Part shown: in pieces, positions 8,338-64,000 of the stretch
Layout: every line of letters starts with the position of its first letter
How positions within the stretch are numbered: position 1 is the stretch's first letter
From: Bacteroidota bacterium
Lineage (GTDB): Bacteria; Bacteroidota; JABWAT01
Assembly (NCBI GenBank): GCA_017303995.1
Contig: JAFLBE010000011.1
Span: 1-64,000, forward strand
DNA length: 64,000 nt
Reading direction: 5' to 3'
Position numbers and translations under genes: made by a program
Notes under the pieces: model-generated
What the model saw: only the letters and a program-made list of their open reading frames with translations
Told to the model about the DNA's origin: nothing
Database searches by the model: none

Positions 8338-8347
8338 AATAATTCCG

Positions 8348-8938
8348 TTACTTAAGTGTTGAATCTGGTTTTGTTTTTTGATTTAAAAGGGTGTTTATCT
8401 GTTCAGAAACCGGTGAATTGAAAACCGGAACTCTGGCGTAGGGGACAGAAGATAAACTGTTAACCCGGCCGTGCGGAGTTTGCTGATGACATGACCAGCA
8501 ATTCCGGTCAGCATTTTCTGGGGAAATGTGGAAGTTATCAGCCAAAAGGGTTGAATGACATCTGATACAGTTTTCTTTGATGACGCCAATGCCGGCTTCC
8601 TTCACATGAATAACCTGAGGTTCCATCCGAAGGGTAAACATGGTGGCGTGACGAAGTCCGTCCTGAGCTTTGAAATAGTAGGTTCTGAACACGTTATCAT
8701 GCGGAACGTGACAGTCGTTGCAGGAGGCAACCCGACCGTGACTTCCTGTTTGCCAGGTTGCATATTGAGGTGCCATGATGTGGCAGTTGACACAGGCTTT
8801 TGGGTCATCTGAGAGGTAGGAAAGTGCGTTTGAAATGTAAAGTGTGTACATGCCAATCCCGACTATTCCGGCAAGCAGAACGAGAACAACAGGCCGCCAT
8901 TCAGGAGGTGGAGAAAAAGTATTAAAAAATTTATTCAT
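8348..8938 (-). CDS. nrfH: Cytochrome c nitrite reductase small subunit (menaquinol dehydrogenase)
   Basis: A 196-residue NapC/NirT-family tetrahaem protein that oxidises menaquinol and passes electrons to NrfA. One N-terminal membrane helix (about 16-38) is followed by four haem sites: CVNCH (49-53), CNDCH (73-77), CIRCH (124-128) and CWSCH (147-151). The segment MAPQYATW after the first haem is typical of NrfH. The gap of 94 bp to the upstream moaA shows no convincing -35/-10 pair and no terminator hairpin, so transcription could read through from moaA or start there from a weak site. A long C-terminal tail (about 155-196) is not needed for haem binding. Confidence 0.95.
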   Translation of the reverse strand: MNKFFNTFSPPPEWRPVVLVLLAGIVGIGMYTLYISNALSYLSDDPKACVNCHIMAPQYATWQTGSHGRVASCNDCHVPHDNVFRTYYFKAQDGLRHATMFTLRMEPQVIHVKEAGIGVIKENCIRCHSTLLADNFHISPENADRNCWSCHQQTPHGRVNSLSSVPYARVPVFNSPVSEQINTLLNQKTKPDSTLK

Positions 8939-11920: not shown

Positions 11921-13456
11921 TTAGCACGGTTTTTCTGCATTTTTTCTGGCATAAAACCACCAGCAGAGAATCAGACAGAGGACATAGAAAATAGTAAATC
12001 CGAAAAGTGCATATTCCGGAGTTCCGGCTTTTACCTGCTCACCGAATACTTTGGGAACAATCATGGCGCCATAAGCTGCAATGGCAGACGTCCAGCCTAA
12101 AACCGGACCTGCCTGTGCAGGTTCAAAAATGACAGGAATCATCCGGAAGGTAGATCCGTTGCCAATTCCGGTTGTGACAAATAAAAGAAGGAACAATAAA
12201 AGGAACGGCATGAAAAAATCGACCGGTGAACCGGCTTGTCTGGCCTGAATGACCGTCCATGCAACTCCAAGTGCAGCAAGGATCATGACAACCGTATTCC
12301 ATAAGGTTACTTTTGCACCGCCGACTTTATCGGAAAGCCAGCCACCAACCGGGCGGATCAGCGATCCAACCAAAGGACCCAACCAGGCGTAGGCAAATGG
12401 ATTCGGAGCATCCGGATTTGAAGTCCCGTCAGCAAGTGGGGCACCGAAAACAATTTTGATGAGTAAGGGAAGTGCTGCAGAATATCCGATAAAAGAACCA
12501 AACGTCATGATGTATAAAACGGTCATGACCCAGGTGTGGCGGTTTGAAAAAATGGCGAACTGTTTCTTCAGGTTTTCCTGAACTTTTCCGGGAATCAGTC
12601 TCATGAGTCCGAGTGTAAACAGAATCGTGATTGGCAGAACAATCCATAAATTCCATTTCATAAAAAACATCAGCCAGATGCCAAGGGAAGCTCCAATAAA
12701 TCCGATTAGAATCAATCCGGTTGCTTTCATAACGGCAACAAAAGTTGAACTCGTATCAGAAACCGGAAGATTATTCATTCCTGCACGGGCAAGGAAAAAC
12801 AACACAATCAGAACTGGCACCCAGATCAGACCTGAATTCTGAATGTAAACCAGAGAAACCACTCCATTTTTTGAGAGTTCATACCCAGCCCCACCGGCGG
12901 CACCAAAAAGTCCGACCGTCATGGCCATCGGTACGAAAACCTGCATGACGGAGACACCCAGATTTCCGATTCCGGCATTGATGCCAAGTGCGGCACCCTG
13001 CATTTTTTTCGGAAAGAAAAAAGAAATGTTTGACATGGAGGAAGCAAAGTTTCCACCACCAATTCCAGATAAAGCTGCCAGGACAATAAAGGTAAAATAG
13101 GAAGTGTTCGGATCCTGAAGCGCAATTCCGATCCCAAGAGCAGGAATAAGAAGCAGTTGCGTGGTGTAAGCGATCACATTTCTTCCGCCGGAAATGGCAA
13201 TCAGAAAAGCGTTGGGAATCCGGAGTGTGGCGCCGGCAAGTCCGGCAATGGCAGAGAGGTTGAAGAGTTGCTGATCATCGAACGGAAATCCCAGATTTTT
13301 CATCTGAACGGTGATAATGCTCCACAACATCCACGTCGAAAAGGCCACCAGAAGAGCCGGAACTGATATGAAAAGGTTTTTTCTGGCGATTGCTTTTCCG
13401 GTAGAATTCCAGAATGATTCATTTTCGGGCTCCCAGTTTGGGATGTTGGTTTTCAT
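11921..13456 (-). CDS. narK: Nitrate/nitrite transporter, NarK family (second copy)
   Basis: A 511-residue MFS protein with about 12 hydrophobic segments. The chosen ATG at 13456 (MKTNIPNWEPEN) has AAAGGA about 7 nt upstream; the frame stays open 38 codons further, but that part is encoded by intergenic repeat DNA and is not credible protein. The motif GGGNFASSMSNISFFFPKKMQG matches the NarK/NasA nitrate signature, with a counterpart GIGNGSTFRMIPVIF in the second half. It differs clearly from the downstream NarK, so the pair resembles the narK1/narK2 sets of nitrate respirers, commonly a symporter and a nitrate/nitrite exchanger. Confidence 0.92.
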   Translation of the reverse strand: MKTNIPNWEPENESFWNSTGKAIARKNLFISVPALLVAFSTWMLWSIITVQMKNLGFPFDDQQLFNLSAIAGLAGATLRIPNAFLIAISGGRNVIAYTTQLLLIPALGIGIALQDPNTSYFTFIVLAALSGIGGGNFASSMSNISFFFPKKMQGAALGINAGIGNLGVSVMQVFVPMAMTVGLFGAAGGAGYELSKNGVVSLVYIQNSGLIWVPVLIVLFFLARAGMNNLPVSDTSSTFVAVMKATGLILIGFIGASLGIWLMFFMKWNLWIVLPITILFTLGLMRLIPGKVQENLKKQFAIFSNRHTWVMTVLYIMTFGSFIGYSAALPLLIKIVFGAPLADGTSNPDAPNPFAYAWLGPLVGSLIRPVGGWLSDKVGGAKVTLWNTVVMILAALGVAWTVIQARQAGSPVDFFMPFLLLFLLLFVTTGIGNGSTFRMIPVIFEPAQAGPVLGWTSAIAAYGAMIVPKVFGEQVKAGTPEYALFGFTIFYVLCLILCWWFYARKNAEKPC

Positions 13457-13574
13457 GTTTATTCCTTTGTTGGATTTTATTATTGTCATTCCCGCGTTGA
13501 AAATCCGGCTACCGACGGAAAGGCGGGCTAACGAAGTTCTGCGAAGCTCATCCAGTATTGCTTTTTTCATGATT

Positions 13575-13698
13575 CCCCTCCTTTCCCAAAGGAGGGGTTA
13601 GGGGTGGTTTGCATTTTTATCAGTTTCAGATAAACCACCCCGGCTTCGCCACCTCCCGAAAGTGTTCGGGACAGGCTCTCCTTTATAAAAGGAGGGGA
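13575..13698. repeat. CCCCTCC-flanked intergenic repeat, copy 2
   Basis: Starts CCCCTCCTTTCCC and ends AAAAGGAGGGGA, with internal GGGGTGGTTT, AAACCACCCC and GGCTTCGCCACC. It also has CCCGAAAGTGTTCGGG, a small internal hairpin. Compared with copy 1 the interior between the two GGTGG arms is different and shorter. Confidence 0.85.
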
Positions 13699-13730
13699 AT
13701 TTTCCACTTCCAATTTCCGACCAAAAATCC

Positions 13731-13825
13731 GGTGACTGAGCGGAGTCGAAGTGCCCGGTGCGCGGCGCCCTTCGATAAATCCGGCATCTGCCGGACACTC
13801 AGGGTGACAGGCTCAGTGACCGTAT
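13731..13825. repeat. Inverted repeat GTGACTGAGC...GCTCAGTGACC
   Basis: Near-complementary ends (one mismatch in about 11 bp) bracket a GC-rich interior with its own pair ATCCGGCA / TGCCGGA. A partial relative (CCTTCGACTCCGCTCAGGAA) is at about 6687. It resembles dispersed intergenic palindromes of FCB genomes. Confidence 0.55.
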
Positions 13826-13833
13826 TTTCCTAC

Positions 13834-13866
13834 TGAACACTTATAACTTGTAACTCTGTAACTTAT
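13834..13866 (-). repeat. Heptamer tandem array near the narI stop codon
   Basis: In the sense of narI the units read AGTTATA, AGTTACA, (G)AGTTACA, AGTTATA. One extra base breaks the phase once. It lies about 20 bp beyond the narI stop. Confidence 0.7.
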
Positions 13867-13882
13867 AACTGATTCCCGTTTC

Positions 13883-14551
13883 CTACTTCCTTCTATTCCA
13901 AATCACCACTTGCGGTGGCCGAGTGAAATACCGGAAGGGCAGTGAAAAGGCGTGAACCAACCGGCTGAACGGAATCAGCAAAACAATCACCCAGGCAAAA
14001 ATCAGGTGAAGTTTCACGATGATGGGCAGATTTTCCACGAAGGCAATGTTGGGCGAAAAGGAAACCAGACTCCACAAATACGGCGACATCGTTCCGGGTG
14101 CCCATGAAGAACCCCACGGATAAAGAACTGCCGTCAGAATGCCGAGAACAATCTGAACCAGAAGTAAAAGCAAAATCACTAGATCCATCGTTGAGGTTAC
14201 TGCCTGAATCCGGCTGGTGAAAAGTCTTCTGATAAACAAAACGAGCAAGCCGATAAAACACGCTACTGCAGCAGCAAGTCCGGTACTTTCAATCAAAATC
14301 ACCACCGTTCCGCCAGAAGTTAAATTCTGCCAGAATCTCGGGAAAAGAAAGGCAATCAGGTGGCCGAAAAACACAATTCCAAGTCCGAGATGCCAGGGTA
14401 GCGATCCCCAGAAAACCTTGTCATTTTCAAGAAACTGAGACGATAACGCCGAGTAACTGAACCGGTTTGAATTGAACCGGTAAATGGAACCCACAACCAT
14501 CGTAAAAACGGCAACGTAGGGAAGTCCGGCAAGGAAAAATAAATCAAGCAT
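13883..14551 (-). CDS. narI: Respiratory nitrate reductase gamma subunit (di-haem cytochrome b)
   Basis: A 222-residue membrane protein that takes electrons from quinol and passes them to NarH. About five helices are visible. The haem b ligand candidates are H54 and H64 in the second helix region (WHLG...FFGH) and H182 and H200 near the C-terminus (KLHLIF...RLVHAFSLP), the usual NarI pattern. The start has AGGAG 7 nt upstream and overlaps the narJ end by 8 bp. The length is typical (about 225). Confidence 0.95.
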   Translation of the reverse strand: MLDLFFLAGLPYVAVFTMVVGSIYRFNSNRFSYSALSSQFLENDKVFWGSLPWHLGLGIVFFGHLIAFLFPRFWQNLTSGGTVVILIESTGLAAAVACFIGLLVLFIRRLFTSRIQAVTSTMDLVILLLLLVQIVLGILTAVLYPWGSSWAPGTMSPYLWSLVSFSPNIAFVENLPIIVKLHLIFAWVIVLLIPFSRLVHAFSLPFRYFTRPPQVVIWNRRK

Positions 14552-15119
14552 GATGAATCTCCTGGTGAATTTCAGTTTTCGTCAGGTGAAGAATAAGTTT
14601 GAAAATGGCTGCGTACGGATTGTTTTTTTCTTCAAGTTTCGGCAGCATGTCGGTTGAGGGTTTGATCAGGCAGTCATCGATGAAGCTTTTGTACCGTTCC
14701 TCCTCGATGATATAGGGAGCAAACTGGAGCAAAGTCGGGATGGAGTCCGGAAGTTCACCCGGATGCAAACAGAATCCGTAAATGTTGAAAGCATCAATCA
14801 TCCGGGCCATGAACAAACTCCGGTTGAAATTTTCCTCGCCAAACAATCCGATCGAAATGAAGAGCGGACAAACCGGGTTCAGATCAAAAGTTGACGTGTA
14901 AATTTCCTGCATCCCTTCCATTCTGATCTTTGTTGCCAGTTTCACAAAGGTTTGCCAGTCTGCATAAAGTTCAGAATGAGTCCGGATTTCTTCAGGAAGC
15001 GCCAGACTGACTTTTTCGATAGTTTCCATCATCGATTCAGTAGGGTAGTCAAGAAGATCAGCCAGCAACGGAAACAGGATTTCTGCTTCGGGTGAAGCAG
15101 CTTTGATTAGCGGTTCCAT
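14544..15119 (-). CDS. narJ: Nitrate reductase assembly chaperone
   Basis: A 191-residue NarJ/TorD-family chaperone needed for Mo-cofactor insertion into NarG. The conserved DLLDYPTE near the N-terminus and the YTSTFDLNPVCPLFISIGLFGE segment (about 94-115) are characteristic. It is soluble with no signal peptide. It follows narH with a 1-nt gap and overlaps narI by 8 bp, so production should be tightly coupled to the enzyme subunits. An AGAGGAA ribosome binding site lies in the end of narH. Confidence 0.93.
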   Translation of the reverse strand: MEPLIKAASPEAEILFPLLADLLDYPTESMMETIEKVSLALPEEIRTHSELYADWQTFVKLATKIRMEGMQEIYTSTFDLNPVCPLFISIGLFGEENFNRSLFMARMIDAFNIYGFCLHPGELPDSIPTLLQFAPYIIEEERYKSFIDDCLIKPSTDMLPKLEEKNNPYAAIFKLILHLTKTEIHQEIHHA

Positions 15120-15120
15120 A

Positions 15121-16614
15121 TCAATTTCCTCTCGCTGGTGGATTTACAGTTCCGAAACCGGTGCAGCTTTTGCACACTTCCGGATCCATGGTGGGTTCAA
15201 TGGCCATTTCCCGCTGCATCGGTGCAAGAACAAACCGTTCTTCAACCGTGGGTAAACTGGTCATTTCGTAAATGGCATCAGCTTGTTCGGGTGTGCAATC
15301 TGCAGCAGCCAGAATTTCTTTAACACGGTCGTGATTGAAATCGGCGACCTCACGGAACCGGCGGTAATATCTCACAGCTAGCATTTTTCTAACGGAATAG
15401 GTGATGATTTCCTTGTTTCCGGCGCTGAACAGATTCGACAGATAATCCAGCGTCATCCGTGCTTTTCCCAATCCTGAGAAAAACTCGTCAACCGTGTGGT
15501 TGTAAATTCCATTTTCAACCCGTCCCATGACAGGCAGCAAGGGCGGAACGTAAAACAACATGGGCGCCGTCCGGTATTCGATATGCAGCGGAAGTGCAAG
15601 TTTCCATTCCATCACATATTTGTAAACTGGTGAATGTTGTGCTGCTTCAATGGTTTCAGGCGTAATCCCGTTGAGTTTTGCAGCAGCAATGACATCCGCA
15701 TCAAACGGATTTAAAATCAGACTTCTCTGTGATTCAACCAGGTCATGATCTTCCACTTTCATGGAGTCTTCAATCCGGTCGGCATCATACAAAATCACAC
15801 CCATATACCGGATTCTTCCAACGCAGGAATGGAAACAGGCCGGAGCCTGACCGGTTTCGAGGCGTGGATAGCACAGAATACATTTTTCTGATTTACCGGT
15901 TTTCCAGTTATAATAGATTTTTTTGTATGGACAGGCAGCAACGCAAGCCCGCCATCCACGACATTTATCCTGATTAATCAGAACAATGCCATCTTCTCCC
16001 CGTTTGTAAATTGCTCCGGAAGGACAGGCAGCCACACATGATGGATTTGTACAATGGTTACAGATTCTGGGCAGATACATCATGGCGATGTTTTCAATTT
16101 CCAGCAACTGTTCTTTTTCCTGATCAGTCAGTTCACCAAAATTGGGATCATTTTTAGCATAAATTGTGGATCCAGATAAATCGTCATCCCAGTTCGGACC
16201 GGCTTTGATGTCGATGGGTTGACCAGTAATTTTTGAAACAGGAATAGCAGTCGGCTGATCGTCACCGGCAGGTGCATCAAACAAATCCTGATATTTATAA
16301 GTCCAGGGTTCGTAATACTCATCCAGGCCAGGTTGATTCGGATTGTAAAACAGGCTGAACCAGTGTCCGGTTTTGGACTGTGATTTCAGTTTGAGTTTTT
16401 TTCCGTCCAGCTTCCACCCGCCCTTGTATTTTTCCTGATTTTCCCACTGAACGGGAAAGCCAGTTCCGGGTTTGGTTTCCACATTGTTCCACCACATATA
16501 TTCCGCACCTTCACGGTCGGTCCAGATGTTTTTGCAGGCGACTGAACAAGTGTGGCATCCGATACATTTGTCAAGATGAAAAACCATCGAGACGTGCGAT
16601 CTTACATTCATCAT
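15121..16614 (-). CDS. narH: Respiratory nitrate reductase beta subunit (Fe-S)
   Basis: A 497-residue iron-sulphur protein carrying electrons from NarI to NarG. Four cluster motifs are visible: CIGCHTCSVAC at the N-terminus, CNHCTNPSCVAAC, CRGWRACVAAC (the Trp in place of a Cys marks the [3Fe-4S] site of true NarH), and the CILC...CFHSC group. A further CKSC lies near the C-terminus. AGGAG lies 5 nt before the first ATG. It is 22 nt downstream of narG. Confidence 0.97.
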   Translation of the reverse strand: MMNVRSHVSMVFHLDKCIGCHTCSVACKNIWTDREGAEYMWWNNVETKPGTGFPVQWENQEKYKGGWKLDGKKLKLKSQSKTGHWFSLFYNPNQPGLDEYYEPWTYKYQDLFDAPAGDDQPTAIPVSKITGQPIDIKAGPNWDDDLSGSTIYAKNDPNFGELTDQEKEQLLEIENIAMMYLPRICNHCTNPSCVAACPSGAIYKRGEDGIVLINQDKCRGWRACVAACPYKKIYYNWKTGKSEKCILCYPRLETGQAPACFHSCVGRIRYMGVILYDADRIEDSMKVEDHDLVESQRSLILNPFDADVIAAAKLNGITPETIEAAQHSPVYKYVMEWKLALPLHIEYRTAPMLFYVPPLLPVMGRVENGIYNHTVDEFFSGLGKARMTLDYLSNLFSAGNKEIITYSVRKMLAVRYYRRFREVADFNHDRVKEILAAADCTPEQADAIYEMTSLPTVEERFVLAPMQREMAIEPTMDPEVCKSCTGFGTVNPPARGN

Positions 16615-16636
16615 TTTCTCCTTTTTCTGTATCGGC

Positions 16637-19600
16637 TCAGAATTCTTTTTTCGCTAATTTTTTAACCAGAACCTGGGTTTCACGGTTTACACCGGTCGGA
16701 CCCCAATAATTAAAGGCATAAGTGAACTGGGCATATCCGCCAATCATAAACAACGGTTTCAGGCGAACCCGGGTGAGACTGTTATGTCCGCCGGCCCGTT
16801 TGTTTCCCCGCTCAGGTGATTTCGGCACAGAAAGTGTCCGTTCCGGCGAGTGATAAATCATGCACATTCCCCTCGGAACCCGGTGGGTCACGCAGGCACG
16901 GGTACAAACCACGCCATTGTCATTGTACACTTCAACCCAGTCGTTATCCACGATGCCAATGAGTTCTGCATCTTTATTATTGATCCACAACGGTTCTACA
17001 CCCCGGCTCAGTGTTTTCATTCTGAGTGTATCGCCGTAAGTGGAGTGAATGCCCCATTTTCCGTGCGGCGTGATATAGTTCAGGCTGATGGGATCGCCGT
17101 TCAGCGACGATTTAACCAGATCACCATACGTCACGGCATCAACTGCCGGTTTGTGTGTCGGAAGGTTTTCACCGTAGGCAACGTAAGTTTCGTGATCGAG
17201 GTAAAAATGCTGCCGGCCGGTTAATGTTCTCCAGGGAACACGGCGTTCATTGTTGAGCGTGTAGGCCGAATAGGTTCTTCCTTGGGTGGTAAATCCGGTC
17301 CAGAATGGCGTTGTCAGAACCCGGCGCGGATTGTTGGCTATATCTTCAAAAGTGAATTTGATTCCCCGGGTAGGTGAAGCCAGATCGGTGAGATCAAGTC
17401 CGGTTTTTTGAGATTCGTATTCAAACGCCCGGTAAGCGAGTTCACCGTTGGTTTCGGCGGCAAAAGCCAGAATAAATTCACAGACTGATTTATCCTGACG
17501 CAGGGAAATATACTCGTTTCCGCCCCATTTTTCGGTCGGATAATCTTTAATGTGCTGATCATGAACGTCGGCAACATCAATGTGGATGCCGTGCATGCCC
17601 AATCCATTTTTTTTGATCGCAGGTCCGACAGAAATGAACTTGTTGAAAACGGATTTTGGATCACGTTCTACAACCCGGAAGGAAGGCATGGTTTTTCCTG
17701 GAATCGGTTCACATTCTCCGGTAATCCAGTCCTTCACTGATGGTTGTGCCATTTCGCCCGGCGTGTCGTGCATAATCGGCGACGCAATCAGGTCACGAAC
17801 AACCGGAAGGTTCAGTTCCTGTGCCAGCTTTGCTGTGGCTTCTGCAACTCCCCGGAAAATGTCCCAGTCGGGTTTTGATTCCCAGCAAGGGGTGACTGCT
17901 GCCTGAAGCGGGTGAATGAACGAGTGCATATCGGTCGTGTTGAGATCATTCTTTTCATAAAACGTGGCTGCCGGAAGAATGATATCAGAATAAAGTGCAG
18001 ACGTATCCATCCGGAAATTCAGATCCACAATCAGATCCATTTTACCAACGGGAAGTTTGTCGTGCCAGGTCACTTCTTTCACATCTTCAGGTTCGATTTC
18101 TCCGGCGATGGCGTTATCGTGAGTTCCCAGATAATGCCGTAAGAAATATTCGTGTCCTTTTGCGGAAGACATGAGTGCATTACCACGCCAGATGTAAAAA
18201 GTTCTCGGCCAGTTTTCTTCGGCATCGGGATCTTCAATTGAAAATTTGAGTTTTCTTTCCTTAAGTTGCTGAACGACGTAAGCAATGATGTCTTCATCAG
18301 TTTTTGCCCCGGTTTTCACAGCTTCATCAATGAGGTCGGCATTTGGCCGGTTGAATTGCGGATAGCAGGGCATCCAGCCGTTTCTGACGGCCTGGATATT
18401 CCGGTCAATAGTGTGGCCTGAAGCCATGGAATGTGAGTTGTCTGAAACCGCACACATATCCTGAAAAGGTTTGTCGTAACGCCACTGATCCGAATGAATG
18501 TAGTGAAAGGACGGCGCATTTTGCTGCCGGGGAGGAGCTCCCCAATCTGCACCAAAGGCAACCGGACCCCACGACGTCTGCGGAACGAGTTTTTCCTGAC
18601 CGACATAGTGATTCAGTCCGCCGCCATTTACGCCGATGCAACCGGTCATCATGAGCACAGAAATCGGAGCCCGGTACATCAGGTTGTTGTGATACCAGTG
18701 ATTGGCGCCGGCACCAATAATAACCGAACATTTTCCGTTGGTTTGCTGAGCGGTCGCTGCCCATTCCTGAGCAAATTTAATGACGAGTTCACGGTCAACG
18801 CCGGTGAATTTTTCCTGCCAGGCGGGTGTGTTCGGGGTTTCTTCGTCCTGATAGGAAGATGAAAATCCGTCAAAACCACGATCGACGCTGTATTGCGCCA
18901 GCATCAGATCAAAAACGGTGGTCACGATTTCTTCGCCGTTGACTGTTTTTACTTTTTTTATCGGAACGGGACGGGCGACAACTTTGTCATTGGTTGATTC
19001 AGAAAAATCATTGAAGGTGACCTGAACGGTTTCATCTTCCATGCCGAGCAATGAGAGAACCGGATCAGTTTCTTTTCCCGAAACGGCATCTTCTGATTTC
19101 AGATTCCACTTACCTTTTTCCTTCTGCCAGCGGAAACCGAGTGTTCCGGTTGGAAGGGCAAGTTTTTTCGTGTTCCCGTCAAAAATGAAGGTTTTCCATT
19201 CGGCATTGTCTTCTCCGGCGGTGGATTTTACTTCAGAGGCACGAAGCAAACTTCCGGCGGTGAAGGTTCCGTCTTCCTTTTTAGCCAGTTTGACGACAAA
19301 CGGCATGTCGGTTTTTTCTTTGACATACTGCTGGAAGTAGGGAACCTGACTGTCAATGAATTTTTCTTTCAGGATGACGTGACCGACGGCCATCCAAAAG
19401 GCGGAGTCCTGACCCTGATGGATTGGAATCCACTCATCGGCAGTTTTGGCGGTCATGTTAAAATCGGGTGCAAAAACGACAACTTTTGATCCGTTGTGAC
19501 GGCTTTCAACGAGAAAGTGGGCGTCAGGTGTGCGGGTCATGAACACGTTTGAACCCACAACGGCGATAAATTTGGAATGGAACCAGTCAGCACTTTCAGC

Positions 19601-20266
19601 AACATCAGTTTGTTCACCCCAGATTTCTGGTGATGCCGGCGGAAGGTCACAGTACCAATCGTAAAAACTCAGGCAAACGCCGCCCATCAGTTGTAAAAAC
19701 CGTGCTCCCGAGGCGTAGGAGACCATCGACATGGCCGGAATTGGCGAAAACCCAATGATCCGGTCGGAACCCCATTTCTGTGACGTGTACAGATTCGACG
19801 CTGCCATCAGTTCGTTGGCTTCATCCCACGAAAACCGGCGAAGTCCGCCTTTTCCCCGTGCCTGCTGATATTTTTTCCGCAGAACCGGATTTTCCTGGAT
19901 GGACTTCCAGGCTTCGTAAGCATTTCCGCCGGAAGCGACTTTTGCAGCCTTCCAGATGTCATACAGAATTCCCCGGATGTACGGATATTTCACCCGGATG
20001 GGAGAGTAAATGTACCAGGAGTAAGAAATTCCTCTTTGGCAGCCACGGGGTTCATATGGCGGAATGTCCCGGGCAATTTTCGGATAATCGAGTGCCTGCA
20101 TTTCCCAGGTGATGATGCCGTTTTTAACGTAAATATTCCAGCTGCAGCCACCGGTACAGTTTACACCGTGTGTGCTTCTTACGATTTTATCGTATTGCCA
20201 GCGGTTCCGGTAAAATTGTTCCCAGCTTCTTGCATCCGGATTTAAAATATCTTGTATCCATGACAT
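16637..20266 (-). CDS. narG: Respiratory nitrate reductase alpha subunit (Mo-bisMGD)
   Basis: A 1209-residue catalytic subunit reducing nitrate to nitrite. The N-terminal FS0 cluster is liganded by H33, C37, C41 and C76, with His in place of the first Cys as in Nar enzymes. The Mo ligand Asp is D207 in WYCDLPPAS. No twin-arginine signal is visible, so a cytoplasm-facing Nar with NarI in the membrane is most likely. AAGGA lies 8 nt before the ATG. The order narC-G-H-J-I recalls the Thermus nar operon. Confidence 0.97.
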
Positions 20267-55361: not shown

Positions 55362-55949
55362 TTGACCTTATTCCGTAATAAATTCCGGATAAAATCGGCA
55401 CGTTTACCCGATTTCGATTATTCGATGAATGGAATGTATTTCATCACGATCTGTACAAAGGAACGGTTACCTTTTTTTGGTGAAATTGTGGAGGGGGGGA
55501 TAACTTTATCTGAAATGGGCGAAATTGTCAAACGATTTTGGCAGGAAATTCCAAACCAATTTTCATATGTTAAATTAGATGAATTTGTGGTGATGCCAAA
55601 TCATTTTCATGGAATTGTAATCATCGATCAAAATCGTAGAGACGCGATTAATCGCGTCTCTACCGCCGATGCAATATCGATTAACCGCATTTCAACGGCG
55701 GTAAACGAAAATACAGGTGGATTTGCCGGGGATAAAAATCCAATGGTCAATGAAAATTTGTCACGAATCATCAGGTGGTACAAAGGACGGGTTTCATTTG
55801 AAATCAAAAAAATCCATTCTGATTTTGGATGGCAATCCCGGTTTCATGACCGGATCATTCGGAACGAAGATGAATTATTTAATGTCCGGAATTATATTAA
55901 AAACAATCCGGCGAATTGGGAAAATGATAAATTGATGAAGGAAAAATAA
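55362..55949 (+). mobile_element. REP-associated tyrosine transposase (RAYT, IS200-like Y1 family)
   Basis: A 195-residue single-domain HUH endonuclease. The start is TTG. The His-x-His metal site is H81-F-H83 in MPNHFHGIV and the likely nucleophile is Y178 in NVRNYIKNNP. The N-terminal RLPDFDYSMNGMYFITICT is typical of RAYTs. Residues about 92-100 (RRDAINRVS) are encoded by a perfect 28-bp REP palindrome (55636-55663), and an identical palindrome lies 17 bp beyond the stop (55966-55993). RAYTs are thought to mobilise REP sequences, so this gene carries its own likely substrate. Confidence 0.88.
55636..55663. repeat. REP palindrome inside the RAYT coding sequence
   Basis: A perfect 28-bp palindrome; the half is GTAGAGACGCGATT. 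It adds no frameshift. It is followed by a second inverted pair ACCGCC (55662-55667) and GGCGGT (55696-55701), also in the coding sequence. Confidence 0.92.
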
Positions 55950-56016: not shown

Positions 56017-56766
56017 TTATTTTTTATCCAGCCAATCCAATAAACCCGTTATAAACGTTAACGGATGGGGCGGGCAACCGGGAATGAACAAATCAACCGG
56101 ATGCTGTTCCAGAAATTCACGGTTTAATTCCGGCGAATCTTTAAAAATACCACCCGAGATGCCACACGCACCAAACAGAATGACAATTTTCGGATCAGGA
56201 ACGGCATCAAAACACATCTGGGTTGCTTCTGCCATGGTGGCGGTCATGGGTCCGGTAATGACGATTCCGTCTGCATGACGGGGTGAGGCTACAAATTCAA
56301 TCCCGAACCGGCCCATGTCAAAATTTACATTGCTGAGGGCATTCAATTCCAGTTCACAGGCGTTGCATCCGCCGGAGGAAATCTGTCTCAGTTTCAATGA
56401 TTTCCCGAAATAGGATCTGATCTTTTCTGAGGCAATTTCTGGGGTAATTCTGTGTTCCGTTCCACTCACAACCAATTGTTCACGGGAACTGCACGTTATG
56501 TGGTGCTCATTGGTGAAATGAATCACCTGTTCCGGGCAGTTCTGTTCACAAACCGGACAAAAAACACAGGTTCCCAGATCAATCTTCAGCGGATTCAAAC
56601 TGATTGCATTTGTTGGACACAAATCCACGCAAATTGTACATCCATGCGGGCATTTTTCTGGCTGGATTTGAGGCATACCACGGAATAAAGGTGGAAGTCC
56701 GGGATTGTGAACATCGTGAACGATGGGATCACCCTGCAGAATTCTTAATCTGATACTTTCAAACAT
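56017..56766 (-). CDS. Ehr complex: fused ferredoxin and NuoB/HyfI-like small subunit
   Basis: A 249-residue fusion. Residues 30-90 hold two [4Fe-4S] motifs: C39/C43/C46/C50 and C67/C70/C73/C77, as in HyfH/NuoI. Residues about 125-245 are the NuoB/HyfI-like small subunit with all four ligands of the proximal cluster: C134 and C137 (GGCNACELE), C201 (GACGISGG) and C231 (GCPPHP). In most relatives these are separate proteins. GAGGA lies 7 nt before the ATG. It is the last gene of the operon. Confidence 0.88.
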   Translation of the reverse strand: MFESIRLRILQGDPIVHDVHNPGLPPLFRGMPQIQPEKCPHGCTICVDLCPTNAISLNPLKIDLGTCVFCPVCEQNCPEQVIHFTNEHHITCSSREQLVVSGTEHRITPEIASEKIRSYFGKSLKLRQISSGGCNACELELNALSNVNFDMGRFGIEFVASPRHADGIVITGPMTATMAEATQMCFDAVPDPKIVILFGACGISGGIFKDSPELNREFLEQHPVDLFIPGCPPHPLTFITGLLDWLDKK

Positions 56767-56778
56767 GGCACATCCTCA

Positions 56779-58260
56779 TTATAAATCGTGTCCGGCATAG
56801 GATAAATCAAAGCTCTTGTTGCACAACGGAAAGTCCGAAATGGCTTCATTCCGCAGAGCAAGTGCGAGTCCGTACCAGTTATGAAACGATGGATCTTTGA
56901 TTTTATATCGGGTCAGTTTTCCATCGGAACCGGTAAATAAACTGTGAACAATTTCGCCACGCCATCCTTCAACCACTGAGATCACTCCAGAATCCGGTTG
57001 CAAATCGTGAACTTTGGTTTGGGTTGTTCCTGCAGGTAAATTGTCAAGCTGTTCAAAAATAAACCGGATGGAATCTTCAATTTCAAGTGCACGGATGCGG
57101 GTTCGTGCGAAGACATCGCCGGTACCAAGAGTGATCAGCGGAATCGGAAAATACCGGTAAGCACCATAAGGGAACTGACTTCTCGTATCCAGATCAATTC
57201 CGCTTGCCCGGGCAGCGGGCCCTACCATCCCAATTTCAGATGCCCATTCACGGGTTACTGTTCCAGTATGATCGAGCCTGGCAAGTACGCTGGTTGAATC
57301 AAACAAAACCAGATTGATAGCCGAAACATCATTTAAAACGGTAGTTAGGTTGGATTTTAATTTTTCAATTGCCTCTTCATCCGGATCAAATTGAAGTCCG
57401 CCGGGAACCAGAAATCCTTTGCCGAACCGTGATCCGCAGAAAAGAGCAAGTCCGTTGATGACTAAGGTGCGGAGACGGCCATAAGAGGAAGCCCCAATGG
57501 CATAACCGATGTCGTTTGCAATTCCGCCCAAACCGGCAAGATGCATGGCAACCCGTTCAAGTTCTTCGGCGATGGAACGCAAAACCTGAGTTTTTAAACT
57601 CACATTGGTGTGCGCCAAAGCCTCAATTCCCAAAACATGAGCCATCGAATGGCCAATTGTGGTATCACCGGCGATGGACTCACACAAAATGGTTTGTTGC
57701 CGGGAATTTGCAGAAAGCAAAAGATTTTCAATCCCCCGTTTCTGATATCCCAGAACAATTTCAAGATGATAAACCAGTTCACCGTGACATTGAAACCTGA
57801 AATGCCCCGGTTCAATCACACCGGCATGGATGGGACCCACTGCAACTTCATGAACTTCTTCACCTTCCATCTGATACAAAGAATAAGGCTGATCACCCAG
57901 AACAGTTGATTGTTTTCTCACCGGACGAAGCCAAGGATGTCCGTTGGGAATAATCAGATTTTCTTCGGCAAGTTCACATTCGAAATAATTCGTCTGTGGA
58001 AAGTCAGAGGCAAAACTGTTAAACCGGTGATCGTCTTTACTGAATTGGGTTGCAGTTAAACTGATGGAAGACGTCAATGGATTACTGAGAACGACCAAAA
58101 CGGTTTTTTCTGATTTTTCAGGATTCAGGGCAAACAAACTGATCAGACGGAATCCGGCTTGAAGCGATTGGCGGATGCTGTTCTCAAATTCGGAAACTGA
58201 AATGACCGGAATATCACTGATGTGAAACGGACGATGGTTTTGGACGGATAAAAAGCTCAT
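56779..58260 (-). CDS. Ehr complex: NuoC-NuoD/HyfG-like large subunit without [NiFe] ligands
   Basis: A 493-residue protein with a NuoC-like part (about 1-110) fused to a NuoD/HyfG-like part (about 130-493). Where [NiFe] hydrogenases have the CxxC of motif L1, this reads ESIAGDTTIGHS (194-205). At the end, in place of DPCxxC, it has DFPLCNKSFDLSYAGHDL. Four metal-binding Cys are therefore missing, and it should not be a hydrogenase. This pattern is that described for energy-converting-hydrogenase-related (Ehr) complexes. It shares 4 nt (ATGA) with the upstream gene. Confidence 0.9.
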   Translation of the reverse strand: MSFLSVQNHRPFHISDIPVISVSEFENSIRQSLQAGFRLISLFALNPEKSEKTVLVVLSNPLTSSISLTATQFSKDDHRFNSFASDFPQTNYFECELAEENLIIPNGHPWLRPVRKQSTVLGDQPYSLYQMEGEEVHEVAVGPIHAGVIEPGHFRFQCHGELVYHLEIVLGYQKRGIENLLLSANSRQQTILCESIAGDTTIGHSMAHVLGIEALAHTNVSLKTQVLRSIAEELERVAMHLAGLGGIANDIGYAIGASSYGRLRTLVINGLALFCGSRFGKGFLVPGGLQFDPDEEAIEKLKSNLTTVLNDVSAINLVLFDSTSVLARLDHTGTVTREWASEIGMVGPAARASGIDLDTRSQFPYGAYRYFPIPLITLGTGDVFARTRIRALEIEDSIRFIFEQLDNLPAGTTQTKVHDLQPDSGVISVVEGWRGEIVHSLFTGSDGKLTRYKIKDPSFHNWYGLALALRNEAISDFPLCNKSFDLSYAGHDL

Positions 58261-59708
58261 AGTATGATTCCAAAATCAAGTGCAATGTTGGTCACCATTT
58301 CATAAAGTTCTGAAGGAAGGAAAAGACCCAATCCGATCAGCATCAGCAGCAGAATGAGTGATGCAAAGTGGGTGATATCGAACTTTTCGCTTATTTCCGG
58401 CAGATTGGCAATATCTGGCGGTGCCTTGTAAAGCATCTGAAAAACGGTTTTACTCATCCCGACGAAAATGAAAAAGAGAAGGAATAACACACCGGCGAGT
58501 AGCCAGGGTTTTGCCATCAATCCCTGAAAAATCATCAGTTCACTGAAAAATATACCGAAGGGCGGCATGGCGATAATGGCGAAAAATCCGGTCAGGAACA
58601 GCCAGCCCGTCCAGGGCATTGCATTCAGCACATTCCAGACTGATGCCGTTTCACGTGATTTATACGCCCGGTGAATATTGCCGGCATTGAGAAATAAAAC
58701 CACTTTGGTAATTGAATTGTAAACGACGTGCAGCATGGCACCCACAAAAGCAATTCCGCCGGTTCCGATTCCAATGACAATCAAACCCAAATGTTCAACG
58801 CTGGAATACGAAATCATCCGTTTGTAATTGGTTACTTTAAACATGAAAACAAAAGCAACAAAAAGTGAAAACATCCCGCCGATAATCATGATAATCCGGG
58901 CAAATTCAGCCGTTTCGGTTGGAACCATAATCTGATATACTCTCAGAACACCGATCAGAGCCGTTCCCCGGAGTGAACCCGACATTAAAGCAGCAACCGG
59001 ACTTGGGGAATTGCTCGTGGCATCAATATCACCTGGGTGCATGGGAGCAATTCCGATTTTTGTACTTAATCCGACAAAAACAAAAATAAAGGCTGCCTTC
59101 AGCCAGATCGGATTCAATACTTCGGCATTCAGGATAAAGTTGGTGACCACCAATTGTTTCCCATCCAAAACCGTTCCATTGGCCGATAAAGTCAGGAAAA
59201 GAAATCCGACAAAGGCAAAGGCAATCCCGACAGAAACGAGGAACAAATACTTCCACATGGCTTCAAGTGCTTCTTCATCCCGGTAATAAAAAATCAGCGG
59301 AGCAACACAAAGTGTCGTGGTTTCAGAGGCAACCCAGAAAAGCCCCAGATGGTTACTGATCAGCGCCAGTGTATTGGCAAGAAGATATAAATTCAGCAGC
59401 ATGAAGTAGAGTTTTTTGCTCTTTTCTTCCTTCACAATATTGGGCCGGCTGAGGTAGGAATAAGAAACCAATGTTACCCAGAAGTACACATTTGAAAGTA
59501 CCATCAGGAAAAGTTTGGTTAATGAATCAAACCGGATGAAATCATTTTCTGACGGATTTAAAAACCCGGAAAAGATGAGAAATGAACACAAAAGGTGAAC
59601 AGTTGCAGCAAACAAGGTCAGCGAATATTGAATCTTCCGGTTTTTCAGGAAATAGACCAACCCAATATTCAGCAAAGGCAGTGCAGTTAAAAGAAATAGT
59701 TCAAGCAT
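58257..59708 (-). CDS. Ehr complex: HyfF/NuoN-like proton-translocating subunit
   Basis: A 483-residue antiporter-like membrane subunit with about 14 helices. The conserved FVGLSTKIGIAPMHPGDIDATSNSPSPVAALMSG (about 217-250) includes the functional Lys of this family. YSSVEHLGLIVIGIG and NSITKVVLFLNAGNI give the second channel. It is one of at least three NuoL/M/N-type subunits here, which suggests coupled ion pumping. Confidence 0.92.
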   Translation of the reverse strand: MLELFLLTALPLLNIGLVYFLKNRKIQYSLTLFAATVHLLCSFLIFSGFLNPSENDFIRFDSLTKLFLMVLSNVYFWVTLVSYSYLSRPNIVKEEKSKKLYFMLLNLYLLANTLALISNHLGLFWVASETTTLCVAPLIFYYRDEEALEAMWKYLFLVSVGIAFAFVGFLFLTLSANGTVLDGKQLVVTNFILNAEVLNPIWLKAAFIFVFVGLSTKIGIAPMHPGDIDATSNSPSPVAALMSGSLRGTALIGVLRVYQIMVPTETAEFARIIMIIGGMFSLFVAFVFMFKVTNYKRMISYSSVEHLGLIVIGIGTGGIAFVGAMLHVVYNSITKVVLFLNAGNIHRAYKSRETASVWNVLNAMPWTGWLFLTGFFAIIAMPPFGIFFSELMIFQGLMAKPWLLAGVLFLLFFIFVGMSKTVFQMLYKAPPDIANLPEISEKFDITHFASLILLLMLIGLGLFLPSELYEMVTNIALDFGIIL

Positions 59709-60340
59709 CAGTCTTTTAACCTCCCTAAGGCAGTCACATCAGGTTGGGCAAAAGTTGAACTGATCCGGTTGATCACAATTCCCATCAGGAAAACGACCAC
59801 GAAAATATCAAGCAGGGCGCCCAGTTCAACGATGGTTGGCATTTCAGCAGAAAGCGACGTTCCGAAAAGCAAAATCCCATTTTCCAGAATCAGAAATCCG
59901 ACCACGTGAATAATAAGTTTTTTCCGGAAAATGATGATAAAAATTCCAATGATCATGGCGGAAAAAGCAGAGGCAAAAGGAATGGGTTCGATGGTTGTGA
60001 ATCCCGATAAAACATGGGCGGAAACAAACAGAACCGACATCGAAAACACACTCAGCAGCAGAAAATTAAAGGGCTGAATACTGGGTTCCACGATCCGTTT
60101 CACGTCAAGGTCAATAACGATTTTATTGACAAACCGGGGAATAATGATGGCCTTGACGATCAATGAAACGATCGGAATGATCAGCAAATGGACTGACAAG
60201 TGGTGTAAAAACGGAAAAATCATGATCAGGGAAAGTAAAACCCCCTGTATCCGTAAAATGGTGACATAGGTTTTAATTCTGGAGGTAACCACCAGATAAA
60301 GAAGCGTAAGACAAAAGAGAATACTGAGTACATTTTCCAT
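59708..60340 (-). CDS. Ehr complex: HyfE/NuoK-like subunit
   Basis: A 210-residue membrane protein with about six helices. VVGFLILENGILLFGTSLSAEMPTIVELGALLDIFVVVFLMG (about 146-187) holds the NuoK-type Glu residues. The longer size versus NuoK (about 100) is typical of HyfE. The start overlaps nothing; the stop shares one base with the HyfF-like start. Confidence 0.9.
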   Translation of the reverse strand: MENVLSILFCLTLLYLVVTSRIKTYVTILRIQGVLLSLIMIFPFLHHLSVHLLIIPIVSLIVKAIIIPRFVNKIVIDLDVKRIVEPSIQPFNFLLLSVFSMSVLFVSAHVLSGFTTIEPIPFASAFSAMIIGIFIIIFRKKLIIHVVGFLILENGILLFGTSLSAEMPTIVELGALLDIFVVVFLMGIVINRISSTFAQPDVTALGRLKD

Positions 60341-60355
60341 AGTGAATCCGGAAGT

Positions 60356-61282
60356 TTAGCGAACAAACGTATAAATAAGCAGATTGAGAATCCCGATAGC
60401 AGTTGCAAACAACAGATATTGGGGAATACTTTTCATTTTAAACCGGGCAATCATGGTTTCAACCCAGGCGATGACCGTGGTCAGCAGAAAGATGACGACA
60501 ATAAAAACAGAAAATCCCAGCCACTCATTGGCCATGCTGAACGGATTGAAAAAGGACGCCTCAAAAACAGCGTAAACCATAATTTTAATGTAGCTGCCAT
60601 ACTGGTAAAGAAACAGGTCAATTCCGGAATTATCCAGAATCATCACTTCATGAATCATCGTGAGTTCAAGGTGCGTGTTCGGGTCATCAATGGGCATTCT
60701 TGAACATTCGGTTACCAGCAGAATAAACCCCGAAATCGAACTGACGATAATGAAAACCAGGGCACTGGGTTCATCAAGCTGGATGGAATGATAAATGTCG
60801 TAAATGGAAGTATGTCCGCTGATGAAGGCAAGACTTCCGAGCGTGAAAAAGAAAATCGGTTCGGCAAAAACGGCGAAAGTCGCTTCCCGGGCGGCGCCCA
60901 TTCCTTCAAATGAACTCCCGATATCCATTGCACCAAGAATCTGGAAAAACCGGGCGAGACCAAGCAGATAAGCAAAAACAATAATATCACCATTGAAACT
61001 GAAAAGCGGACGAACATATCCGATCGGCAGAATCAGAAGGGTAAACAGAATGGCAGAAAAGGAAATAACCGGTGCGATCCGGCTGATAAATGAAGCCGAT
61101 GTTGCGTAAATGGTTTCCTTCCGGCTAAGCCGGGCCAGATCATAATATGGCTGCCAGACCGGAGCACCAATCCGGCCGGTGAGAATTGCTTTTTGCTTGT
61201 TGATGAGACCCACGAGAAACGGGGAGACCAACAGAATCAGAACAAAGGGAAATAATCCCTGCAAACTTACAGATAAGTCCAT
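60356..61282 (-). CDS. Ehr complex: HyfC/NuoH-like membrane anchor subunit
   Basis: A 308-residue membrane protein of eight helices. The family signature ECSRMPIDDPNTHLELTMIHE (about 193-213) is complete, and GRIGAPVWQPYYDLARL lies near the N-terminus. This subunit holds the soluble electron-transfer arm and the quinone- or ion-related channel entrance. It overlaps the HyfB-like gene by 16 bp. Confidence 0.93.
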   Translation of the reverse strand: MDLSVSLQGLFPFVLILLVSPFLVGLINKQKAILTGRIGAPVWQPYYDLARLSRKETIYATSASFISRIAPVISFSAILFTLLILPIGYVRPLFSFNGDIIVFAYLLGLARFFQILGAMDIGSSFEGMGAAREATFAVFAEPIFFFTLGSLAFISGHTSIYDIYHSIQLDEPSALVFIIVSSISGFILLVTECSRMPIDDPNTHLELTMIHEVMILDNSGIDLFLYQYGSYIKIMVYAVFEASFFNPFSMANEWLGFSVFIVVIFLLTTVIAWVETMIARFKMKSIPQYLLFATAIGILNLLIYTFVR

Positions 61283-63237
61283 AAAATGGCAGTTCCTCCA
61301 TAGAAGAGAACAGTGAGCAGCATAAATAAAATGTAGAACCGGATGTCAGTCCGGGAAAGAAAATCGACTGAAGTGATTTTTCCGATAATCCAGGAATAGA
61401 TTGGTTTCACCAGTCCGTCTTCTGAAAAATCACCGGCGTGAGAGTGAAACCGGGACGTTACAGGGAAAATGGTTTCCGGGATTTTGACCTTTGATTTCAG
61501 GTGCAAAACCGAAACTGCAATTCCGTTAATGTCATCAGCGTAAGAAGATGCGGTGTATTGCATTCTTGATGTTTGGCCTGCGTAGCCACAACCCCAGGCG
61601 GCCGATTTTCGCTGGTTGGTCCGGGAGACTTTCCAGATAATCAGAGTTGAAATCAGCAGGATGATGGCGGCAAAAATACCGGTAATAAAATTCCATTGGG
61701 CAAAGGTGGAAAAAGTTTGCGCAGATTCGCCCGATTGGAAAATGGCAACTACAGAAGAAATGATTCCCAGAATAATCTGCGGATAAATTCCGAAAAGCAG
61801 GCAAACAAACGCCAGTAAACCAAGTGAAAGATAATCCAAGCCAGTAACGGTGAATTTTAGATGAGGTGATCGTTCATTTCCCAGAAACATGATGCTGTTG
61901 ATTTTGGTGAAACAGGCAAGAGCCAATCCGCCAACGAAAGCAAGTCCGACCGTCATGAGCAGCATGAAAAAGGGAAAATATCCGCCAAAAATTGAGGCAG
62001 ATTCAAAAAAGCCACGGTAAATCAGAAACTCAGACATGAATCCGTTTAACGGTGGAAGTCCGCTGATGGCAACTGACCCGATCAGGAAAAGTCCCACAAA
62101 CCAGGGCGCAGATTTTACAATTCCGCCCATCAGTTCAATATTCCGGGTATGAAGATTCGAATAAATGACACCTGACCCGAGAAAAAGCAGAGATTTGAAA
62201 ATGGCGTGATTAAACGTATGAAATAAGGCGCCGCCAAGTCCCAGCCAGATTAAGGGTTGGATGGAATACGTCATTCCCAGACATCCGAGACCGATTCCAA
62301 TCCCGATAATTCCGATATTTTCGATGGAATGATAAGCCAGCAGCTTCTTGATGTCGTGCTGGGCAAGGGCATACCAAACGCCGAAAATGGCACTGAATAA
62401 ACTGATTGCAAGAATCCCGGCACCAATCCAGAGAGGAAGTGGTGAGCAAAATTCCAGCATCCGAAAAATGCCATAAATTCCGGTTTTGATGATGACGGCC
62501 GATAAAAACGCACTTAAAACCGTTGGGGCGATGGAATGGGCATGTGGCAGCCAGAAGTGAAACGGCATGAATCCGGCTTTGATGGCAAACCCGACAAATC
62601 CAAAAAAGAAAGCCACATAAAAGACCATCCCGGATGTTTGGGTAAGCTGGAAATCAGAAAACAGCCAGCTTCCCGATTGGGAATGAAGCAGGAAGAAAAA
62701 GATATAAAGACAAAAAGTAGCAAAGTGAGTGGTTGCAAAATAGATGAAACTGCCTTTTTGAATTTCCGGTTTTTCTTTTTCAAGCAATAATCCCAGATAG
62801 GCCATTAAAGTCATGAGTTCCCAGAAAATCAGGAAAACGATGGCATGATTAGCCAGAACCAAAAGCTGGGTTGATAGCAAAACCAGGGAAAAAGAAACCA
62901 GAAACGCTCTGACGGCAGCTGCTTTGTGGAGATATTGATTCAGATAAGAATGAGTTGAAAGAATTGCAGGAATTGCAGCAGAGGTGATAATCAGTAAAAA
63001 GAAAAGGGCGAGACCATCCAGCCGAAAAAAGGAAGACAAAACCGGAAAGGCCGGGAAAAGTAAAGGTGTTGCAGGTAAATGGACCAGATTGACCAAAGCA
63101 AAAGCCAGATTAAAAAGCAGACCGGCAGACATCACGCCAACATAAATCCGCAAAGCCAATTGAATCGGCTTAACCAGAACAGCAAAAACTGCCCCTATCA
63201 GGATAAGACTGCAACCGAGTATGAAAAGGTGATCCAA
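61267..63237 (-). CDS. Ehr complex: HyfB/NuoL-like proton-translocating subunit
   Basis: A 656-residue NuoL-family protein with about 16 helices. FAIKAGFMPFHFWLPHAHSIAPTVLSAFLSAVIIKTG (about 212-248) carries the key Lys. LAYHSIENIGIIGIG gives the second motif. A C-terminal hydrophilic part starting at about 545 with WGCGYAGQTSRMQY is followed by a last helix. The next upstream gene encodes a similar C-terminus. A 193-bp gap with a CCCCTCC repeat separates it from that gene. Confidence 0.93.
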   Translation of the reverse strand: MDHLFILGCSLILIGAVFAVLVKPIQLALRIYVGVMSAGLLFNLAFALVNLVHLPATPLLFPAFPVLSSFFRLDGLALFFLLIITSAAIPAILSTHSYLNQYLHKAAAVRAFLVSFSLVLLSTQLLVLANHAIVFLIFWELMTLMAYLGLLLEKEKPEIQKGSFIYFATTHFATFCLYIFFFLLHSQSGSWLFSDFQLTQTSGMVFYVAFFFGFVGFAIKAGFMPFHFWLPHAHSIAPTVLSAFLSAVIIKTGIYGIFRMLEFCSPLPLWIGAGILAISLFSAIFGVWYALAQHDIKKLLAYHSIENIGIIGIGIGLGCLGMTYSIQPLIWLGLGGALFHTFNHAIFKSLLFLGSGVIYSNLHTRNIELMGGIVKSAPWFVGLFLIGSVAISGLPPLNGFMSEFLIYRGFFESASIFGGYFPFFMLLMTVGLAFVGGLALACFTKINSIMFLGNERSPHLKFTVTGLDYLSLGLLAFVCLLFGIYPQIILGIISSVVAIFQSGESAQTFSTFAQWNFITGIFAAIILLISTLIIWKVSRTNQRKSAAWGCGYAGQTSRMQYTASSYADDINGIAVSVLHLKSKVKIPETIFPVTSRFHSHAGDFSEDGLVKPIYSWIIGKITSVDFLSRTDIRFYILFMLLTVLFYGGTAILWTYL

Positions 63238-63280
63238 GTTAGTGTCCGTTTAAAAAGACAGATTCATAATTTTTCAAACT

Positions 63281-63416
63281 CCCCTCCTTTTTTAAAGGAG
63301 AGCCTGACCCGTCCCGAGAATCGGGATCGGGGGGGTAGGAGTGGTTTTGTTATTTTCTGTTCAGCCCCAGGAAAACCACCCCGGCTTCGCCACCCCTCCT
63401 TTGGAAAAGGAGGGGA
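63281..63416. repeat. CCCCTCC-flanked intergenic repeat, copy 4
   Basis: It begins CCCCTCCTTTTTT and ends AAAAGGAGGGGA, with internal GTGGTTTTG / GAAAACCACCCC and GGCTTCGCCACCCC. A TCCCGAGAATCGGGA hairpin is inside. It interrupts the Ehr operon between two paralogous NuoL-like genes. Confidence 0.85.
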
Positions 63417-63430
63417 GTTAAAAAACCGCA

Positions 63431-64000
63431 TTAAATTTTATAAGCCAAAAACAGATAGAAAAGCAACGTTGCAACGGAAAAGGTCACATAAACCTGAATC
63501 TTGCCCGATTGCAGCCATTTGAATTTATCAATTGCCCAAAGCAGTCCGGTGTTTGCCGGAAAGATCAGACGGTTTAAAACCAGATCAGAAACGACCGTTC
63601 TGAAACTTCCGGGTTTGGGAAGCGAGGATTCCGGTTCCTGTTTTTCTTTGCTCACATTCAGGACTTCGCCGGCAATATTGATCATTTCATCTGAAAAGGA
63701 TGTATTCGAATATTGCATCCTGCTCGTTTGTGCCGGATAGCCACAACCCCAGGCGGGACTGATCCGTGTTTTTCTTTTCAGCGAAAACCGGTTTTTCAGG
63801 TAAAGCAAAATGCCGGTCACCACAAAAAGGGAAACGGCAATCAGACTCACATTTTGAATCCGGCCAACGGTGGTAAGTGAAGAAACCGGACCGGAAAGAT
63901 GAAACAACTCAGAATATACAGAAAGACAAAGTCCTACGATGGTTTGGGGAAATAATCCTGTAATCAAAATCAGAGCAACGAGGATGAAAAAGGCTGAGAA
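63431..64000 (-). CDS. Second NuoL/HyfB-like subunit of the Ehr complex (partial, N-terminus outside window)
   Basis: The frame is open to the right edge, so only the C-terminal 189 or so residues are seen. They include two helices, then WGCGYPAQTSRMQY, a hydrophilic stretch and a final helix (SVATLLFYLFLAYKI). The motif and layout match the end of the HyfB-like protein downstream, so this is a second, divergent copy. A second NuoL-type subunit in one complex adds a possible pumping module. Confidence 0.85.
   Translation of the reverse strand, partial: FSAFFILVALILITGLFPQTIVGLCLSVYSELFHLSGPVSSLTTVGRIQNVSLIAVSLFVVTGILLYLKNRFSLKRKTRISPAWGCGYPAQTSRMQYSNTSFSDEMINIAGEVLNVSKEKQEPESSLPKPGSFRTVVSDLVLNRLIFPANTGLLWAIDKFKWLQSGKIQVYVTFSVATLLFYLFLAYKI

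Follow-up and report, generated by a model that had tools for sequence, protein, structure and literature searches.

We show that a minus-strand operon at the end of a 64,000-nucleotide stretch of DNA (the window, meaning the whole stretch that was analysed) encodes, as judged from its genes and their relatives, an energy-converting hydrogenase-related (Ehr) complex of a kind already described. Its large subunit has none of the [NiFe] cysteine ligands, and the operon includes an HTH-EIIA gene that is predicted to encode a dedicated, conserved PTS regulator of Ehr operons. The best explanation of the complex would be a ferredoxin-driven, PTS-controlled ion pump, a reading to which we assign a probability of about 0.5. 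The core finding, another Ehr, is ordinary in kind and confirmed in detail. What goes beyond the literature searched is the dedicated HTH-EIIA gene, a link to SulP transporters and independent losses of the proximal iron-sulfur cluster. For work on the reaction of Ehr, the EIIA link offers a concrete regulatory handle.

Layout of the Ehr operon

ORF reading placed all Ehr genes of the window on the minus strand at 56017-64000, in the order hyfB-1 (cut by the window end), hyfB-2, hyfC/nuoH-like, hyfE, hyfF, ehrL and ehrS. Adjoining genes overlap or lie at most 15 bases apart, except for the 193 bases between the two hyfB genes. The Ehr-type set of HyfB-, HyfC-, HyfE- and HyfF-like subunits with EhrL and EhrS is complete and includes three antiporter-like subunits, two HyfB and one HyfF, with EhrL and EhrS as the cytoplasmic arm. 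A first-pass annotation had described a full subunit set, and all subunits were confirmed, but the operon runs past the window end. Contig reading extended it to about 66.5 kb, adding the remainder of HyfB-1, the HTH-EIIA gene and a MerR gene; this upstream half, with the EIIA regulator, falls outside the stretch that was open to the first-pass annotation. The features are as follows.

56017-56766, minus strand: EhrS, 249 aa, two ferredoxin-type [4Fe-4S] sites and a NuoB/HycG-like proximal [4Fe-4S] domain (PF01058, E=2.4e-25 at 134-243; Fer4 matches; 12 of 12 ligands)
56779-58260, minus strand: EhrL large subunit, 493 aa, NuoC-like N-terminus fused to a NuoD/HycE-like domain without [NiFe] cysteines (PF00346; Ehr clade 100/100; fold nearest HycE)
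57646-57681, minus strand: L1 site of EhrL, ESIAGDTTIGHS in place of RxCGxCxxxH (sequence and alignment of relatives)
56782-56835, minus strand: L2 site at the extreme C-terminus of EhrL, DFPLCNKSFDLSYAGHDL in place of DPCxxC, no cleavable tail (sequence and alignment)
58257-59708, minus strand: HyfF-like antiporter subunit (PF00361, E=2e-36; E/K/K residues kept)
59708-60340, minus strand: HyfE-like membrane subunit (NF008556, E=2.4e-17, under the curated cut-off)
60356-61282, minus strand: HyfC/NuoH-like membrane subunit (PF00146, E=2e-32; charged residues E,R,E,E,D,D,E,H,E kept)
61267-63237, minus strand: HyfB-2 antiporter subunit (PF00361, E=5e-47; E/K/K/K kept)
63431-64000, minus strand: HyfB-1 antiporter subunit, C-terminal part; full gene to contig position 65407 (NF005086; full ORF 658 aa, PF00361, E=2e-53)
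Contig 65404-66072, beyond the window: HTH_17-PTS EIIA-2 fusion gene, 4-base overlap with hyfB-1 (PF00359, E=1.7e-17)
Contig 66076-66465, beyond the window: MerR gene

The operon is shared by a second genome of the genus (G002), whose EhrL is 99% identical. Because of this, and because the two other [NiFe] hydrogenases of the genome are normal, the unusual large subunit is not due to chance or to an artefact of assembly or code.

EhrL lacks a metal site and belongs to the Ehr clade

EhrL has five cysteines (95, 158, 193, 275 and 480), and no CxxC was found among them, whether at the site or anywhere else in the protein. Neither RxCGxCxxxH (L1) nor DPCxxC (L2), which mark group 4 [NiFe] hydrogenases, is present, so that the reading of ESIAGDTTIGHS and DFPLCNKSFDLSYAGHDL without CxxC pairs in the first-pass annotation held. 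The protein ends inside L2 (SYAGHDL-stop) and has no C-terminal extension for the maturation protease that cleaves group 4 large subunits. It is a group-4-like large subunit without any [NiFe] cysteine ligands, as in Ehr. In about 90 relatives aligned, CxxC at L2 did not occur once. The motifs standing in place of L1 and L2 (GD[T/S]...H and NKSFxxSYxGxD) hardly vary, and the pattern H-E-H / [A/C/S]-D-[T/S]-H / N-K-S / S-Y-G-D is likewise almost invariant. The cysteines had been called lost; their absence is real, but they are better described as absent across the whole Ehr clade, with a conserved motif instead. An AlphaFold2 model of EhrL (pLDDT 92, pTM 0.92) has HycE (7z0s_E, TM 0.88) as its nearest solved fold. 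The site aligned by eye with Tyr87 of Nqo4 holds Y, F or H in 93 of 96 relatives and has no discriminating power, because HycE has Tyr there too.

A search restricted to one genome per species returned at least 571 relatives. The best 80 of these come from Bacteroidota, Verrucomicrobia, Planctomycetes, Spirochaetes, Geobacteraceae, Melainabacteria, Omnitrophota, Elusimicrobia, Acidobacteria and others. In a tree of 57 large subunits, whose root and long branches are uncertain while the split between Ehr and NuoD is not, 48 Ehr large subunits form a single clade (100/100), apart from six NuoD (100/100), HycE/HyfG and MbhL. The clade includes the window EhrL and takes in Geomonas (L056), Pelobacter (L066) and Melainabacteria (L069, L092). 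The tree position rules out the NuoD of a complete complex I as the identity of EhrL. Taken together, the subunit set, the absence of CxxC and the clade support the Ehr identity proposed in the first-pass annotation.

Ehr complexes without NiFe ligands have been described in Riflemargulisbacteria and relatives (PMC6349859), CPR (PMC7304191), comammox Nitrospira (PMC10284858) and Geobacter (PMC13194489), and Ehr is on record from Melainabacteria too. The Ehr proteins of G. sulfurreducens are produced, in greater abundance with formate, according to proteomics (PMC7894505). The Geobacter operon (ehrA-1, ehrA-2, ehrB, ehrC, ehrL and ehrS; GSU0739-0745) has a similar gene set, likewise without [NiFe] ligands, and in this comparison EhrL is 47% identical. 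The window operon differs in its extra MerR gene and in its EIIA gene, which is absent from the published ehr gene lists found in the literature searched; the operon of Geomonas limicola (L056) has the identical layout EIIA-B-B-C-E-F-L-S. With E. coli formate hydrogenlyase and hydrogenase-4, EhrL has in common the subunit architecture, the NuoC-NuoD-type fusion and the fold, but HycE and HyfG have CxxC pairs and a cleaved C-terminus, neither of which EhrL has, and the window operon is without a separate HycB/HycF or FdhF-type electron-input gene. Complex I belongs to the same superfamily, with three antiporter-like subunits and no NiFe site; the Ehr operon, in contrast, lacks NuoA, E, F, G and J, and its proximal ligands include a hydrogenase-type CxxC where NuoB has a tandem Cys pair. 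Mbx/MBS of Pyrococcus furiosus (6u8y) resembles Ehr in being a hydrogenase-derived complex with a ferredoxin donor, an altered NiFe site and antiporter-like subunits. Ehr differs from it in the lack of a Cys pair at L1 and L2 and in the NuoC-like N-terminus of EhrL.

At each of two loci (L063 and L113), a tandem pair of Ehr operons combines different subtypes. Ehr-like operons occur on plasmids of mainly aerobic bacteria, namely Variovorax, Rhodococcus, Allomeiothermus, Rhizobium and Azospirillum (L113-L117), and several of their small subunits are without the ferredoxin domain.

An HTH-EIIA gene is part of most readable Ehr operons

Among 85 Ehr loci, 62 had a readable region, and in 47 of these the HTH-EIIA gene lies inside the operon, mostly overlapping or abutting hyfB and now and then between hyfB and hyfC. 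The encoded protein has an EIIA-2 domain whose phosphorylatable His is invariant (alignment A2) and matches the PtsN site in position. Conservation of the PtsN-type motif G[DN]GIAIPHxR is strong, although some Opitutae copies vary in it. PtsN (EIIA-Ntr) has the same domain and GxGIAIPH active site, whereas the Ehr protein has in addition an N-terminal HTH_17 domain and is encoded with ehr. A further, separate PtsN-like protein is encoded on contig C76 of the genome, which has genes for EI and HPr as well.

Of 148 Bacteroidota genomes, nine have Ehr, and five of these encode full-length HTH-EIIA, always within the operon; the 139 without Ehr have none (Fisher p=2e-7; 4e-6 if the two genomes from one genus are taken as one). 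The EIIA matches in the Ehr-less genomes nearly all begin past the HTH part, and none is full length. EIIA and EhrL also co-diverge (Mantel r=0.62, 0 of 2000 permutations), to which shared organismal descent may contribute. The literature searched, in which subscription journals are thinly covered so that novelty is unproven, yielded nothing relevant on EIIA paired with Ehr or hydrogenase-4.

A SulP (SLC26-type) gene lies directly upstream of EIIA in L029, L032, L034, L086 and L121; in L035 the two genes are divergent, and in L123 the SulP gene lies downstream, after EhrS. In L031 (6939-9137) a SulP-STAS-EIIA fusion gene stands between ehrL and ehrS. The window operon has no SulP neighbour, and its own genome gives only a weak match, on another contig. 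Because of this, and because most of the 85 loci are without an adjacent SulP, we regard SulP as an association of Ehr, and a constant or required partnership is ruled out.

A predicted ferredoxin-driven pump under PTS control

The elements present in the sequence are the subunit set without [NiFe] ligands, three [4Fe-4S] sites, conserved ion-path residues and HTH-EIIA with a PtsN-type phospho-His. In the mechanism that we favour, a soluble low-potential donor, most likely ferredoxin, would feed the two ferredoxin-type clusters of EhrS. Electrons would reach the proximal cluster and then, at the remodelled EhrL cavity, pass not to protons but to an acceptor that is small and diffusible. A conformational change would then drive H+ or Na+ outward. 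Ion pumping had been claimed in the first-pass annotation, and its support consists of the conserved pump residues, which are consistent with it. HTH-EIIA, phosphorylated by the EI and HPr of the genome, may set the expression and/or activity of the pump by PEP/nitrogen status, be it through DNA, the complex or a transporter.

The acceptor step is the weakest part of this mechanism. Menaquinone would be the likeliest acceptor in this nitrate-respiring host. For some genomes with Ehr, no full quinone pathway was identified (PMC6349859), which makes a quinone unlikely as the general acceptor. Two further observations count against the favoured mechanism: some relatives are without the proximal cluster altogether, and clustering of the 85 Ehr neighbourhoods found no conserved donor or acceptor enzyme and no dehydrogenase partner.

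Loss of EhrS ligands in relatives

The ligands of EhrS (C39/43/46/50, C67/70/73/77 and the proximal C134/137/201/231) are all present, as the first-pass annotation had stated, and all 12 are kept in most relatives. Five EhrS proteins, by contrast, have two to four of the proximal cysteines replaced, with the ORFs and the remaining operon intact: N,E,E,W in L044 (11489-12280), D,V,C,W in L088 (5179-5973), C,A,C,W in L108 (11487-12302), D,C,D,N in L030 (12110-12865) and T,D,E,S in L115 (within 13092-14129). According to the EhrL tree this took at least four events, or perhaps three, given the Trp common to L044 and L088/L108. Most of ferredoxin cluster 1 is gone, with the proximal cluster kept, in L127, L128 and L130. 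EhrS dN/dS values of 0.10 (L088/L108) and 0.09 (L128/L130) show that purifying selection persists. L030, L044, L088 and L108 have an unchanged EhrL pocket motif, in L115 the motif is altered at L1 only, and the antiporter E/K residues are retained where proximal cysteines are gone. Pocket and pump therefore appear to outlive the electron-delivering cluster in these lineages, in whose genomes a second, intact Ehr copy is possible.

These losses are the case for the main rival to a ferredoxin-driven pump, namely a Mrp-like ion transporter for which redox is optional, gated by the arm and EIIA, with an EhrL pocket free of electron chemistry and clusters that are sensory or vanishing. We consider it unlikely, although it deserves serious attention: the 12 ligands of the window and most relatives must be preserved by selection, most simply for electron transfer, and the exceptional genomes may hold an intact Ehr elsewhere. 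A bolder form, which we put forward only tentatively and rate as doubtful, makes Ehr as a whole a PTS-governed ion transporter in which redox is optional. The GD[T/S]...H / NKSFxxSYxGxD pocket would bind a ligand or gate ions without electrons, HTH-EIIA and in places SulP would be components of one module, and for this reason several lineages would have dismantled parts of the iron-sulfur wire. With the natural variants that are without the proximal cluster, pump and pocket can be told apart from electron delivery, which makes the redox role directly testable. Any members that do move ions without a redox step would stand, in function, between complex I and Mrp-type antiporters.

Formate dehydrogenase, hydrogenase and decay

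The favoured pump would take electrons from a soluble donor; alternatively, Ehr could be the cytoplasmic arm of a formate dehydrogenase-Ehr supercomplex in which formate oxidation feeds EhrS, an idea put forward for Margulisbacteria. The FdhA/NuoEF-like genes of Ehr-bearing Saganbacteria, together with genome co-occurrence (PMC6349859), and the rise of G. sulfurreducens Ehr on formate (PMC7894505) agree with this proposal. We nevertheless think it improbable, since no dehydrogenase gene recurs in the 85 neighbourhoods and none was found beside the window operon.

A hydrogenase with unusual non-cysteine ligands at L1 and L2 would fit the fold, the nearest homologue HycE and the HypD gene of the genome, but it is very hard to reconcile with an L2 that reads SYxG and with a protein that stops there without a Cys pair or a maturation-protease tail. 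HypD has no value as a test of NiFe maturation here, because it is accounted for by two other [NiFe] hydrogenases of the genome, on contigs C1 and C47, that keep RxCGxC/DPCxxC. For G. sulfurreducens KN400, decay of a former hydrogenase operon has been suggested (PMC13194489), and missense changes in the ehr genes of electrode-evolved strains (PMC13194489) fit such a remnant. We find this reading scarcely credible here, because the replaced motif hardly varies from phylum to phylum, across many of them, and dN/dS is 0.02-0.10 in every subunit tested. Between the window and G002 it is 0.019 for EhrL, 0.025 for EIIA, 0.05 for HyfB and 0.10 for EhrS; by these values, strong purifying selection is indicated and relaxed decay excluded for the window operon.

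Genome context

The nitrate-respiration island noted in the first pass is real: NrfAH and NarGHI(J), NarK-like MFS transporters and MoaA, at 6838-8938 and 13883-20266 of the window, point to nitrate-to-ammonium respiration. It lies about 35 kb from the Ehr operon, with unrelated genes between and no sign of linkage, so that its proximity is coincidental as far as known and the island was ruled out as evidence on Ehr. Several apparently conserved minus-strand clusters in the Ehr neighbourhoods (for example, in 11 loci just past EhrL) were set aside as antisense shadow ORFs.

Two copies of NuoD are encoded elsewhere in the genome. On contig C46 (L006:1252-1857, minus strand), a MarC-like membrane gene, read from sequence alone, stands between nuoH and nuoJ, where nuoI would be expected. 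Directly downstream of the Ehr operon, in G002 as well, there is a Y1_Tnp-like (REP-associated type) transposase gene (window 55362-55949). Dispersed short intergenic repeats with TTACGGGTCAC / GTAACCCGTAA units occur at L005:11500-11760 and L118:200-320. Just ahead of the MerR start, a dyad TAACCTT...AAGGTTA (L005:11466-11500) is a possible MerR operator for the Ehr operon.
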